Below are positions 28,454 through 33,226 of a stretch of 34,990 nt of DNA, piece by piece. The notes under the pieces are model-generated. The model saw only the letters and a list, made by a program, of their open reading frames with translations. It did not search any database and had not been told where the DNA came from. The position numbers were made by a program, and so were the translations under genes. Position 1 is the stretch's first letter. Every line of letters starts with the position of its first letter. This DNA is from a bacterium (lineage in GTDB: Bacteria > Cyanobacteriota > Vampirovibrionia > Obscuribacterales > JAKAZS01), in NCBI GenBank assembly GCA_021815785.1, contig JAKAZS010000029.1, positions 1 through 34,990 on the forward strand. The letters are read 5' to 3'.

Positions 28454-30037
28454 TTAATGCATATCCGAAGCCGTGGTTTTAGGCGAAACTTTTTTAAAGA
28501 AAAAGATCGTAAAACCGCTTAAAATAAAGGCTAGACCCATTACATAAAAGCAGTCGTTAAAAGCCATTACAAAGGCTTCCCGTTTAACAGTTCCACCCAG
28601 CATTTGGATGGCTTGGTTTCCATATTCAAAGGCATGAATGTTTTTATGGCTAACCATACCTGCCATGGCCTGAAGTGCTTGACGGGTTTGTGGGGCATAG
28701 ATACTAACCGATTCGCCAATACGCTCACTATGCAACTGTTCTCGTACTGTGAGCAGTGTTGAAAGCATGGCAATTCCAATTGAACCACCTAAATTACGCA
28801 TCATATTATACAGCCCGGAAGCTGAGCCGGCTTGGCTGGCTTCAATCGTAGCTACTGATAAACTTGACAGTGGTACGAAAATAAACGGTTGACCAAAAGA
28901 CCGTAAAGCCAGTGATATGACTAACTGGTCCCGACCGGTATCATGGTTCATAGTTGTATTCATAAAGAAACTTGTAGCTAAAGTTGCCACTCCAATGCCA
29001 ATCATAAGACGCATATCCATTTTATTCATGAGCATGACAATAATTGGAATCATAAATAATTGAGGAATACCAGCCCACATCATAACTTCACCAATTTGTA
29101 ATGAACTATAACCTTGAATTTGTCCTAAATAAAGCGGTAGAATAAAGACGCTACCATATAAACCCAGACCCATGACTACATTGACAATACCAGCTAGGCC
29201 AAAATTTCGATTACTAAGCAGGCGTAAATTGATAAAGGGATTTTTTACGGTAAATTCAATAATAAAAAATAAAGTCAAGGATATAAAGGCTAGAATGGCT
29301 AAGTTTAAAATTAATTCATTGCCAAACCAGTCTTTGCGATTGCCTTCTTCGAGGACAATTTCCAGGCTACTCATACCAATTGCCATAAATAAAATACCCA
29401 GCCAATCCCCTTTTTTTAATAAGTCCAGACGCATCGGTTCAGCATCAAAGGCAAAAAATATACAGGCGAGCATGATGATACCAGGTAATATGTTTAAATA
29501 AAATATATATTGCCAGCCATAATTATCGGTTAAATAGCCACCTAGACTAGGTCCAATGGCTGGAGCGAATGTTGCGGTTATCGTAAACAAAGCCATGCCA
29601 ATGGGGCGTTTACTGGGTGGCAATTTAGTCAGCATAACCGTAAAAGCCATTGGAATTAGCACTCCACCGGTAAAACCCTGGCAGGCACGAAAAATAATCA
29701 TTGAAGTAAGGTCCCAGGCCTGACCACAAAGCATCGAAAATATGGTGAATAAAATGGCATTTACCATAATATATTTTTTAATGGAAAATACCTTACTTAG
29801 CCATCCGGTTAAGGGAATAACAATTATTTCCGCTACTAGATACGCCGTTGAAATCCATGAGCCTTCATCAAGAGAGGCTCCTAAGGCTCCTTGAATATCT
29901 TTGAGTGATGAATTGGTGATTTGAATATCTAAAACGGCCATAAAAGCACCCAGCATGGCTCCATATATGCCAATCCAGGCCTTTAAGGGAACGTTGTCTT
30001 TATTTTGAACATTATTTGGCGTTAAGGTTGATGTCAT
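28454..30037 (-). CDS. emrB: DHA2-family (EmrB/QacA-type) MFS efflux transporter
   Basis: LDIQITNSSLKDIQGALGASLDEGSWISTAYLVAEIIVIPLTGWLS; 14-TM type. ATG at 30037 (MTSTLTPN); an in-frame TTG at 30061 is possible. Confidence 0.9.
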   Translation of the reverse strand: MTSTLTPNNVQNKDNVPLKAWIGIYGAMLGAFMAVLDIQITNSSLKDIQGALGASLDEGSWISTAYLVAEIIVIPLTGWLSKVFSIKKYIMVNAILFTIFSMLCGQAWDLTSMIIFRACQGFTGGVLIPMAFTVMLTKLPPSKRPIGMALFTITATFAPAIGPSLGGYLTDNYGWQYIFYLNILPGIIMLACIFFAFDAEPMRLDLLKKGDWLGILFMAIGMSSLEIVLEEGNRKDWFGNELILNLAILAFISLTLFFIIEFTVKNPFINLRLLSNRNFGLAGIVNVVMGLGLYGSVFILPLYLGQIQGYSSLQIGEVMMWAGIPQLFMIPIIVMLMNKMDMRLMIGIGVATLATSFFMNTTMNHDTGRDQLVISLALRSFGQPFIFVPLSSLSVATIEASQAGSASGLYNMMRNLGGSIGIAMLSTLLTVREQLHSERIGESVSIYAPQTRQALQAMAGMVSHKNIHAFEYGNQAIQMLGGTVKREAFVMAFNDCFYVMGLAFILSGFTIFFFKKVSPKTTASDMH

Positions 30038-30213
30038 TGTTATTAGGTAGTCGGCTGACAAGCCATTATTTTTAAGCTAAGTTGTTTTTTGAACTAAAAA
30101 AAATTGATATCATTGTTATAGGGCAGTTCGATGGCAAGTTTTATAAAACTTTATTTATTACATATCATCCTTAAAGTTGATGTCATTGTTATTAGGTAGT
30201 CCGTTGGCAAGTC
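30022..30213. repeat. Three direct-repeat copies of the emrB start region, ~75-bp periodicity
   Basis: TTAAGGTTGATGTCATTGTTATTAGGTAGTCGGCTGACAAGCC (30022-30064); TTGATATCATTGTTATAGGGCAGTTCGATGGCAAGT (30104-30139); TTAAAGTTGATGTCATTGTTATTAGGTAGTCCGTTGGCAAGTC (30171-30213). Confidence 0.9.
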
Positions 30214-30301: not shown

Positions 30302-31645
30302 TTATGGTTTATAAGTTTTGTTTAAACATACGGTAACAACGCAGGATAAACCGGGAACAACTTTGTCTTCATATCCGGTTAGACTTTCTTTGGTGAAAAT
30401 TATTTTAACCGGCACTCTTTGGACAATTTTGGTAAAATTGCCGGTAGCATTATCGGGAGGCAGTAAGGCAAATTGGGATCCGGAATTGGGTGCGATACTA
30501 TCAATATAACCATAAAATTTATGATGTTTATAGGCGTCCACCGTAATTTCAACGAGTTGATGTGGTTGCATTTTTTCGAGCTGAATTTCTTTGAAATTTG
30601 CGACAATCCATGGTGGTGATTCAACAACTGCCATTAAAGCCTCGCCCATTTGGACTCTTTGACCGGTTTCAACAGTTTTACGACCTACGATTCCATTTTC
30701 TGGTGCTATTATATTAGTATAAGATAAATTCAGTTTAGTTTCAGCCAGATTAGCCAGAGCCTGTTCATACTGAGCTCGGTAGGATTGAGTCTGGCGTTTA
30801 ACTACTTCAGTTTGCATATCAGTAGCTTTAGCCTTAGTTAACTGTCCATGAAAGGAAACGCTTTCCGCTTGCGACTGTTCAAGATTATGTTGTGATTGTT
30901 GGTAATGCATTTTGGCTTGGGCAATAGCCTGTAATGCCGTTTCTTCATCAGCTTTTGCTTCCAAATAGGCATCTTTAGCTTCATCCAACAATTGGTCAGT
31001 GATTACGCCACGTTTTTGTAAGGGAATATAACGTTTGTAGTCTGCATAAGTCTTTTCGACTTTAGCTTTGGCTTTAATTAGTCTTGATTGATTAGCTTTA
31101 ATCTGAATTTCATCCTGGGCTAACATTGTCAATGCTGAATCAATCGCAAATTTAGATTTATCATAATTGCCGGTGGCTTGAGTATTTTCACCTTGAGCCT
31201 GCGTGATACTGGCGGGTAAATTTTTACTAGAAGCCTTAAATTGCCAATAGGCACTTTCCACGGCTGCTTGAGCTTGAGCAACTTTTACTTCATAATCTTG
31301 GGGGTCAAGTTTGACTAATAATTGACCTTTGGTAACTTTTTGATTGTCATCAACCAGCACTTTTAAAACAGTTCCCATTAACCTTGAGCTTATTGGATCG
31401 GTATGGGCTTGAACATAAGCATCATCAGTTATTTCATGAGTAGTAAAAAAAGTATAGACTTTAAAAATACCCAATCCTAATATAGGTATAATCAGTAAGG
31501 CTATGGCTAATGCAATATATCTTTTATAGGTTTTAGGTGAATTGGCTTTTATTATGGCGTTAATCTGTTTTTGATTAATTTCAGGATTGTTATTATCTAA
31601 ATTTGTTTGGTCTTTCATTTTCAAACTTTGATTTTCATTGGACAT
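30302..31645 (-). CDS. emrA: HlyD/EmrA-type membrane fusion protein
   Basis: Single N-terminal TM, ITDDAYVQAHTDPISSRLMGTVLKVLVDDNQKVTKGQLLVKLDPQDYE, C-terminal TNIIAPENGIVGRKTVETGQRVQMGEALM. Confidence 0.9.
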   Translation of the reverse strand: MSNENQSLKMKDQTNLDNNNPEINQKQINAIIKANSPKTYKRYIALAIALLIIPILGLGIFKVYTFFTTHEITDDAYVQAHTDPISSRLMGTVLKVLVDDNQKVTKGQLLVKLDPQDYEVKVAQAQAAVESAYWQFKASSKNLPASITQAQGENTQATGNYDKSKFAIDSALTMLAQDEIQIKANQSRLIKAKAKVEKTYADYKRYIPLQKRGVITDQLLDEAKDAYLEAKADEETALQAIAQAKMHYQQSQHNLEQSQAESVSFHGQLTKAKATDMQTEVVKRQTQSYRAQYEQALANLAETKLNLSYTNIIAPENGIVGRKTVETGQRVQMGEALMAVVESPPWIVANFKEIQLEKMQPHQLVEITVDAYKHHKFYGYIDSIAPNSGSQFALLPPDNATGNFTKIVQRVPVKIIFTKESLTGYEDKVVPGLSCVVTVCLNKTYKP

Positions 31646-31670
31646 AGTTGTCACCTGTTTGGATTAGATA

Positions 31671-31696
31671 TTATTAACTAAACAGTTAGTTAATAA
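31671..31696. promoter_or_regulatory. Perfect palindromic operator-like site TTATTAACTAA-ACAG-TTAGTTAATAA
   Basis: 11-bp perfect inverted repeat with a 4-bp spacer immediately upstream of emrA. Confidence 0.7.
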
Positions 31697-31832
31697 TTTT
31701 ATTGTACAACTAATTCTTGAATTCTCCAAGATGATTTTTCAAAATAAATTATTAAAATTTCATTATTTAAGGGTAAACGGTATTTGAATTACAGATTTTT
31801 CTTAAATAAGCATTTTGATTAACAGCCGTTTG

Positions 31833-31934
31833 AGTATTTTGAACGACTGATTAAGTAATTTGAATGAAAGTATATTCATTACATTAGTCCTTTTTAAAGT
31901 TCAGTATTTTGAACGACTACTTAAGTAATTTGAA
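31833..31934. repeat. 32-bp direct repeat pair AGTATTTTGAACGACTnnTTAAGTAATTTGAA
   Basis: Copies at 31833-31864 and 31903-31934, 30/32 identical, start-to-start spacing 70 bp, in the divergent emrA / 32126 intergenic region. Confidence 0.85.
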
Positions 31935-32125: not shown

Positions 32126-33226
32126 ATGACTAAATCGAAATTTTTTTCTTTGGCTATGAGCCTAGCATTTATCCTCAATAATAATTGTCAGTATACTCTG
32201 GCTCGTGAAATTGATTTGACCGATACTAAAAATTGGCTTAATGATAGTTTAAGTACTAAGGCTAGTTCTTCTAATACAGCGTTAAATCAAACTAAATTGG
32301 CTCAAGTTAAGACTGTTAGTGATAAAAATAAAGTTAAATTAATGCCCTTTGTTCCGGGACGAAAACTTCCTCATAAAGAGGTTAGTAGGCCTTTGGAACC
32401 GGAAATGGACACCAATAGCAGCGTTTTACAAGGTGGCGTAACGCTTACGGCGCAGAATAAGCCAATTAAAGTTAACCGGAAAAATCAGTGGCGTATTAAA
32501 AAAGCTAGTGATGAAACAAGCGTAAATAATAAAAATGCTGAACAAAATGCTGAACAAAATGTTGATGTGACTGAAATTAAGCAATTGGCTAGTAAAGCCT
32601 GTAACGGAATAATTTCGAAAATTATGCTTAAGTCTAAGACCGAACCAGGAAATTATCGTAATTTCGAAAATTTTGCTAATTTAAATAATGGTTCGCAATC
32701 TAATGTAAATAATTTAATACAAGGTCCATCTTTAGGCTTAAGTACAATGACCCCAATGAATAATCTGGTCATGAATAGCCCTAGTAGTGGAGATGCTGAT
32801 TCGGACTTCGCTGCCGGACCACCACCATTTCCTTTAAATCTTATTCCAGCTAATATGTTAAAACAGATTATCTATAACAAGCCTAAAAACAATGTAGCTT
32901 TTCGCAGTCCCCAAGCTTCTTATTTTGGTTCATGGCACCAAGCTAGTGGGGTTGGTCTGCCTAATGGTTCGAAATTTTATGATAGTATTAGCCGATCTAA
33001 TTTACCGTCTTGCTCATTTCATAGTAATTTAAATTATTTAGCCTATAACCATCTTTATAATTCAAAATATTCATCACATATTTATCGATCTTTAGTTTAT
33101 AACGCAAATAGAATTGGGACGAATAATTCAAGATTAGTTCAAGTAACTAGACACAATAATCCAAGTGTTAATGCTCCATTTGTAGCTTGCTATCCACCGT
33201 ATGCTCATAGCCATAACTTTGAATAA
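32126..33226 (+). CDS. Hypothetical exported protein
   Basis: 366-aa ORF with N-terminal signal-like segment MTKSKFFSLAMSLAFILNNNCQYTLA; no recognised domain; contains a NAEQNAEQN micro-repeat. Confidence 0.65.
   Translation: MTKSKFFSLAMSLAFILNNNCQYTLAREIDLTDTKNWLNDSLSTKASSSNTALNQTKLAQVKTVSDKNKVKLMPFVPGRKLPHKEVSRPLEPEMDTNSSVLQGGVTLTAQNKPIKVNRKNQWRIKKASDETSVNNKNAEQNAEQNVDVTEIKQLASKACNGIISKIMLKSKTEPGNYRNFENFANLNNGSQSNVNNLIQGPSLGLSTMTPMNNLVMNSPSSGDADSDFAAGPPPFPLNLIPANMLKQIIYNKPKNNVAFRSPQASYFGSWHQASGVGLPNGSKFYDSISRSNLPSCSFHSNLNYLAYNHLYNSKYSSHIYRSLVYNANRIGTNNSRLVQVTRHNNPSVNAPFVACYPPYAHSHNFE

Follow-up and report, generated by a model that had tools for sequence, protein, structure and literature searches.

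The window, i.e. the whole stretch of 34,990 nucleotides that was analysed, belongs to a 2.9-Mb genome of the Candidatus Melainabacteria type, which is assembled in 144 contigs. Its minus strand carries the gene for a DHA2-family efflux permease of 527 aa (emrB, 28454..30037; TIGR00711, E 6e-129), whose protein is 57-63% identical to the cyanobacterial homologues, and upstream of it the gene for an emrA-type periplasmic adaptor (30302..31654; TIGR00998, E 1e-66, below the curated cutoff). An ORF of 366 aa (32126-33226), divergent from emrA, is without a Pfam or NCBIfam match. From the ATG at 30037-30035 (minus strand), the emrB product begins with MTSTLTPNNVQNKDN, and this start is backed by cyanobacterial EmrB N-termini of equal length, e.g. 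MANTSAIPQQQSDDRVPLKT.

The repeated start region of emrB

A preliminary description of this DNA had reported three blocks of about 36-43 bp at the start of emrB, spaced 76 and 73 bp apart, with the copy nearest to the gene supplying the start codon. The repeat search and shuffled sequences bear out this layout: there are three copies of 40 nt on the minus strand, viz. w1 (30024-30063), w2 (30100-30139) and w3 (30173-30212), at the spacings reported, with identities to the middle copy of 73% and 83%. The emrB start codon lies within w1, in agreement with the homologous N-termini. When up to three mismatches are allowed, the 18-mer TAATAACAATGACATCAA occurs three times in the window, always within this array, and in shuffled sequence it has on average 0.13 matches, none of the shuffles having three. 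Any two window copies agree at 26-31 of the 35 nt of their cores (core identity between copies 74-89%) and ATAACAATGA is retained in every copy, but the similarity of the adjoining flanks of 38-42 nt is about that of chance (left p 0.20-1.0, right p 0.04-1.0). Among the 276 ORF starts that were sampled, emrB is the sole case whose start region is repeated within 300 nt upstream, with an identity of 34/40 against a shuffled maximum of 25 and 26 in the next real case. As far as this sample goes (the ORF-start and local-repeat scans covered about 369 kb of this genome), the repeated start region is specific to the emrB locus and is not a genome-wide habit.

Among the 53 genomes of the order (its own included), the core was found only in the window genome and in the sister genome described below. 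No additional copy of the array was found elsewhere in its own genome or in the viral contigs searched, and an exact 24-nt stretch of one spacer likewise had no match in viral contigs. A repeated emrB start is absent from the 21 cyanobacterial-type loci that were checked (best 18-21/40), and a literature search found nothing on a layout of this kind. Different known types of elements were considered and rejected: a dispersed repeat family, as there is no other copy in this genome or the order; a known RNA element, as the only match was to a snoRNA, below threshold and located elsewhere; a CRISPR-like array, as the repeats are only 74-89% identical and one of them overlaps a coding start; a sigma-70 promoter in each core, as promoter-like matches occur at about the level expected by chance and are not shared by the copies; and coding of the core from an upstream TTG, as the differences between copies, by inspection, mostly alter the residue.

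Copy number and a hybrid copy in the sister genome

The preliminary description had called for a comparison of the emrA-emrB gap in related genomes, and this could be made for two close genomes, the contigs of the congener G001 being broken in this region. The sister genome is a Candidatus Melainabacteria metagenome assembly (DAHXLC010000274.1), the EmrB of which is 98% identical. Its gap is 180 bp in length versus 264 bp in the window, and it carries two copies, L1 and L2, which are 73 bp apart, versus three in the window; it therefore keeps one upstream copy where the window has two, and the copy number varies between close relatives in the manner of a local variable-number repeat. The core of w1 is identical to that of L1 at 34/35 positions and the core of w2 to that of L2 at 30/35, and the unit of w3 is the one absent from the sister. 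The left flank of L2 matches w3 and its right flank matches w2, and in both cases 0 of 2000 shuffles were as good. In its sequence L2 looks like a hybrid, with its left half from w3 and its right half from w2. A copy of this kind would be expected to remain if w3 had recombined with w2 and one unit had thereby been removed. That the window lineage instead gained a unit is less likely, since the sequence between w3 and w2 does not copy that between w2 and w1. Further, the start is followed by ATCAA in all window copies versus ATCAT in both sister copies, a pattern which, at this one site, hints at exchange between copies inside each genome. Between the window and the sister, the w2/L2 core differs by 12%, its adjoining spacers by 5% and 13%, and the gene copy w1 by 3%. 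The upstream core is thus diverging no slower than the spacers and, for two genomes and small counts, shows no extra constraint.

The region upstream of emrA

A perfect palindrome with 12-bp arms, ATTATTAACTAA-4-TTAGTTAATAAT, is located upstream of emrA (31670..31697). In G001, a more diverged congener with an EmrA of 79% identity, emrA is preceded by a palindrome of the same kind, and this pattern was found nowhere else in the window genome or in G001. The operators of TetR-family regulators are palindromes resembling this one. By this resemblance, the palindrome is a likely candidate operator of emrAB, and the regulation of these genes more probably acts here rather than at the array; it is also the more useful lead for work on this regulation. 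A second direct repeat upstream of emrA consists of two copies of 35 nt (31830-31864 and 31900-31934), which are 91% identical and spaced 70 bp apart; no match to it was found in G001, and the sister contig ends before this site. The presence of the array motif itself upstream of emrA was considered and rejected, as the similarity was only marginal (p 0.01-0.04 in 2 of 12 comparisons, uncorrected).

Explanations for the array and its relation to known systems

The short ORFs that had been described from the upstream ATGs read as stated: one of 11 codons from w3 (30151-30186, minus strand; MTSTLRMICNK, then a stop) and one of 13 codons from w2 (30072-30113, minus strand; MISIFFSSKNNLA, then a stop). 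If these ATGs attenuated the translation of emrB as decoy or leader sites of initiation, as had been suggested, then the retention of the start context in all copies and the presence of at least one short upstream ORF in both genomes would be accounted for. However, the ORF from w2 corresponds in the sister to MTSSLVQKTT (then a stop) from L2, the frame being broken by a 4-nt indel, and the conserved leader ORF that translational attenuation entails is not seen between the window and the sister, which also differ in copy number. Folding of the gap transcript, likewise proposed in the preliminary description, gave no excess of structure, the predicted fold being on average slightly less stable than shuffles (z = +1.16); two-sided change is seen in 1 of 41 consensus pairs (from two sequences only), and the alternative hairpins sequestering the emrB ribosome-binding site that attenuation would also entail were not found. 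A Shine-Dalgarno motif is absent before all copies, although this is ordinary here because strict motifs precede only 55 of the 209 ORF starts sampled. Control of emrB by a leader peptide or decoy in the upstream copies is unsupported, and we consider it quite improbable. It is very improbable that the copied starts serve as decoys for initiation or as binding sites, with recombination tuning the pump level through changes in their number; if they did tune emrB, a pump would here be under an unusual form of control by copy number, in a lineage on which few experiments have been done. If, on the other hand, a DNA-binding regulator occupies the repeated cores, which lie about seven turns of the helix from one another, and thereby controls a promoter between emrA and emrB, then one would understand why the cores are alike and the flanks near random, why the spacing is 73 and 76 bp in the window and 73 bp in the sister, and why w1, L1 and L2 have TGTCA-19-TGACA ends. 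However, neither w2 nor w3 has these inverted ends intact, the motif is only weakly palindromic and unique to this gap with no further site in the genome, an excess of conservation in the core over the spacers is not seen for w2/L2 in these two close genomes, and there is a better operator candidate at emrA. This suggestion, for which the comparison yielded no positive support, appears doubtful. An error of copy number in one or both metagenome assemblies could be envisaged, as the window genome is in 144 contigs, the sister is metagenome-assembled and short repeats can collapse. However, the divergence of 11-26% between copies and the spacers, which are unique, make repeat collapse or false expansion unlikely, and such an artefact is scarcely credible as the source of the copy numbers.

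Of the readings that had been put forward, a fossil of local duplication is the best supported, by the 3 versus 2 copies and the hybrid at the missing unit, and we think it probable that the array arose by local copying of the emrB-start segment with a later change in copy number. A segment of about 35-40 bp spanning the emrB start codon would have been copied just upstream in a common ancestor of the window species and its sister, after which recombination or slippage between the copies may have altered their number, and the upstream ATGs would be passengers inherited with the copied segment. The short reading frame is different in each of the two species and the array is without members elsewhere in the genomes searched. 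However, it will be incorrect to interpret the layout as a plain tandem duplication of whole units, because such a duplication would have carried the spacers along, whereas the cores are alike (74-89% identical) and the flanks show little or no homology; a better fit is that the cores alone were copied, or that exchange has kept the copies similar. The second short direct repeat upstream of emrA, with its similar spacing of 70 bp, also speaks against mere debris, as a shared function could account for the two repeats. Both the copying mechanism and the absence of function are what we infer. If the array is duplication debris, then it advises caution, as short upstream ORFs sharing the start of a gene can be passengers of copying.

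In comparison with known systems, the emrB array resembles VNTR loci in being confined to one gap, in its copy number varying among close relatives and in variation of a kind that recombination or slippage among its copies could produce. However, it has only 2-3 copies with diverged cores and spacers without clear homology, the repeat of a whole unit inclusive of its spacer is not seen, and the array goes unreported by Tandem Repeats Finder. Resistance genes such as erm and cat have leader peptides with translational attenuation, and the array is similar to these in having short ORFs ahead of a gene for drug efflux, but it is without a conserved peptide or an excess of alternative structure. 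The window genome also contains a tandem array between genes, with about four units of 96 bp (L148, 7630 to about 8015), and a 63-bp tandem array of 5.4 copies with 97% match (L162, 3719-4058), which runs into the 3' end of tRNA-Leu(cag) (L162, 4030-4114, minus strand) and in every unit of which the tRNA tail recurs in decayed form; the existence of both arrays was counted in favour of local copying. The rtT of E. coli tyrT is a tRNA-tail repeat, in which a fragment of the gene end is copied beside the gene. The emrB array shares with rtT, and with the tRNA-Leu example of this genome, a gene-end fragment copied beside its gene, and differs from them in that its copied fragment comes from a protein gene, at the 5' start.
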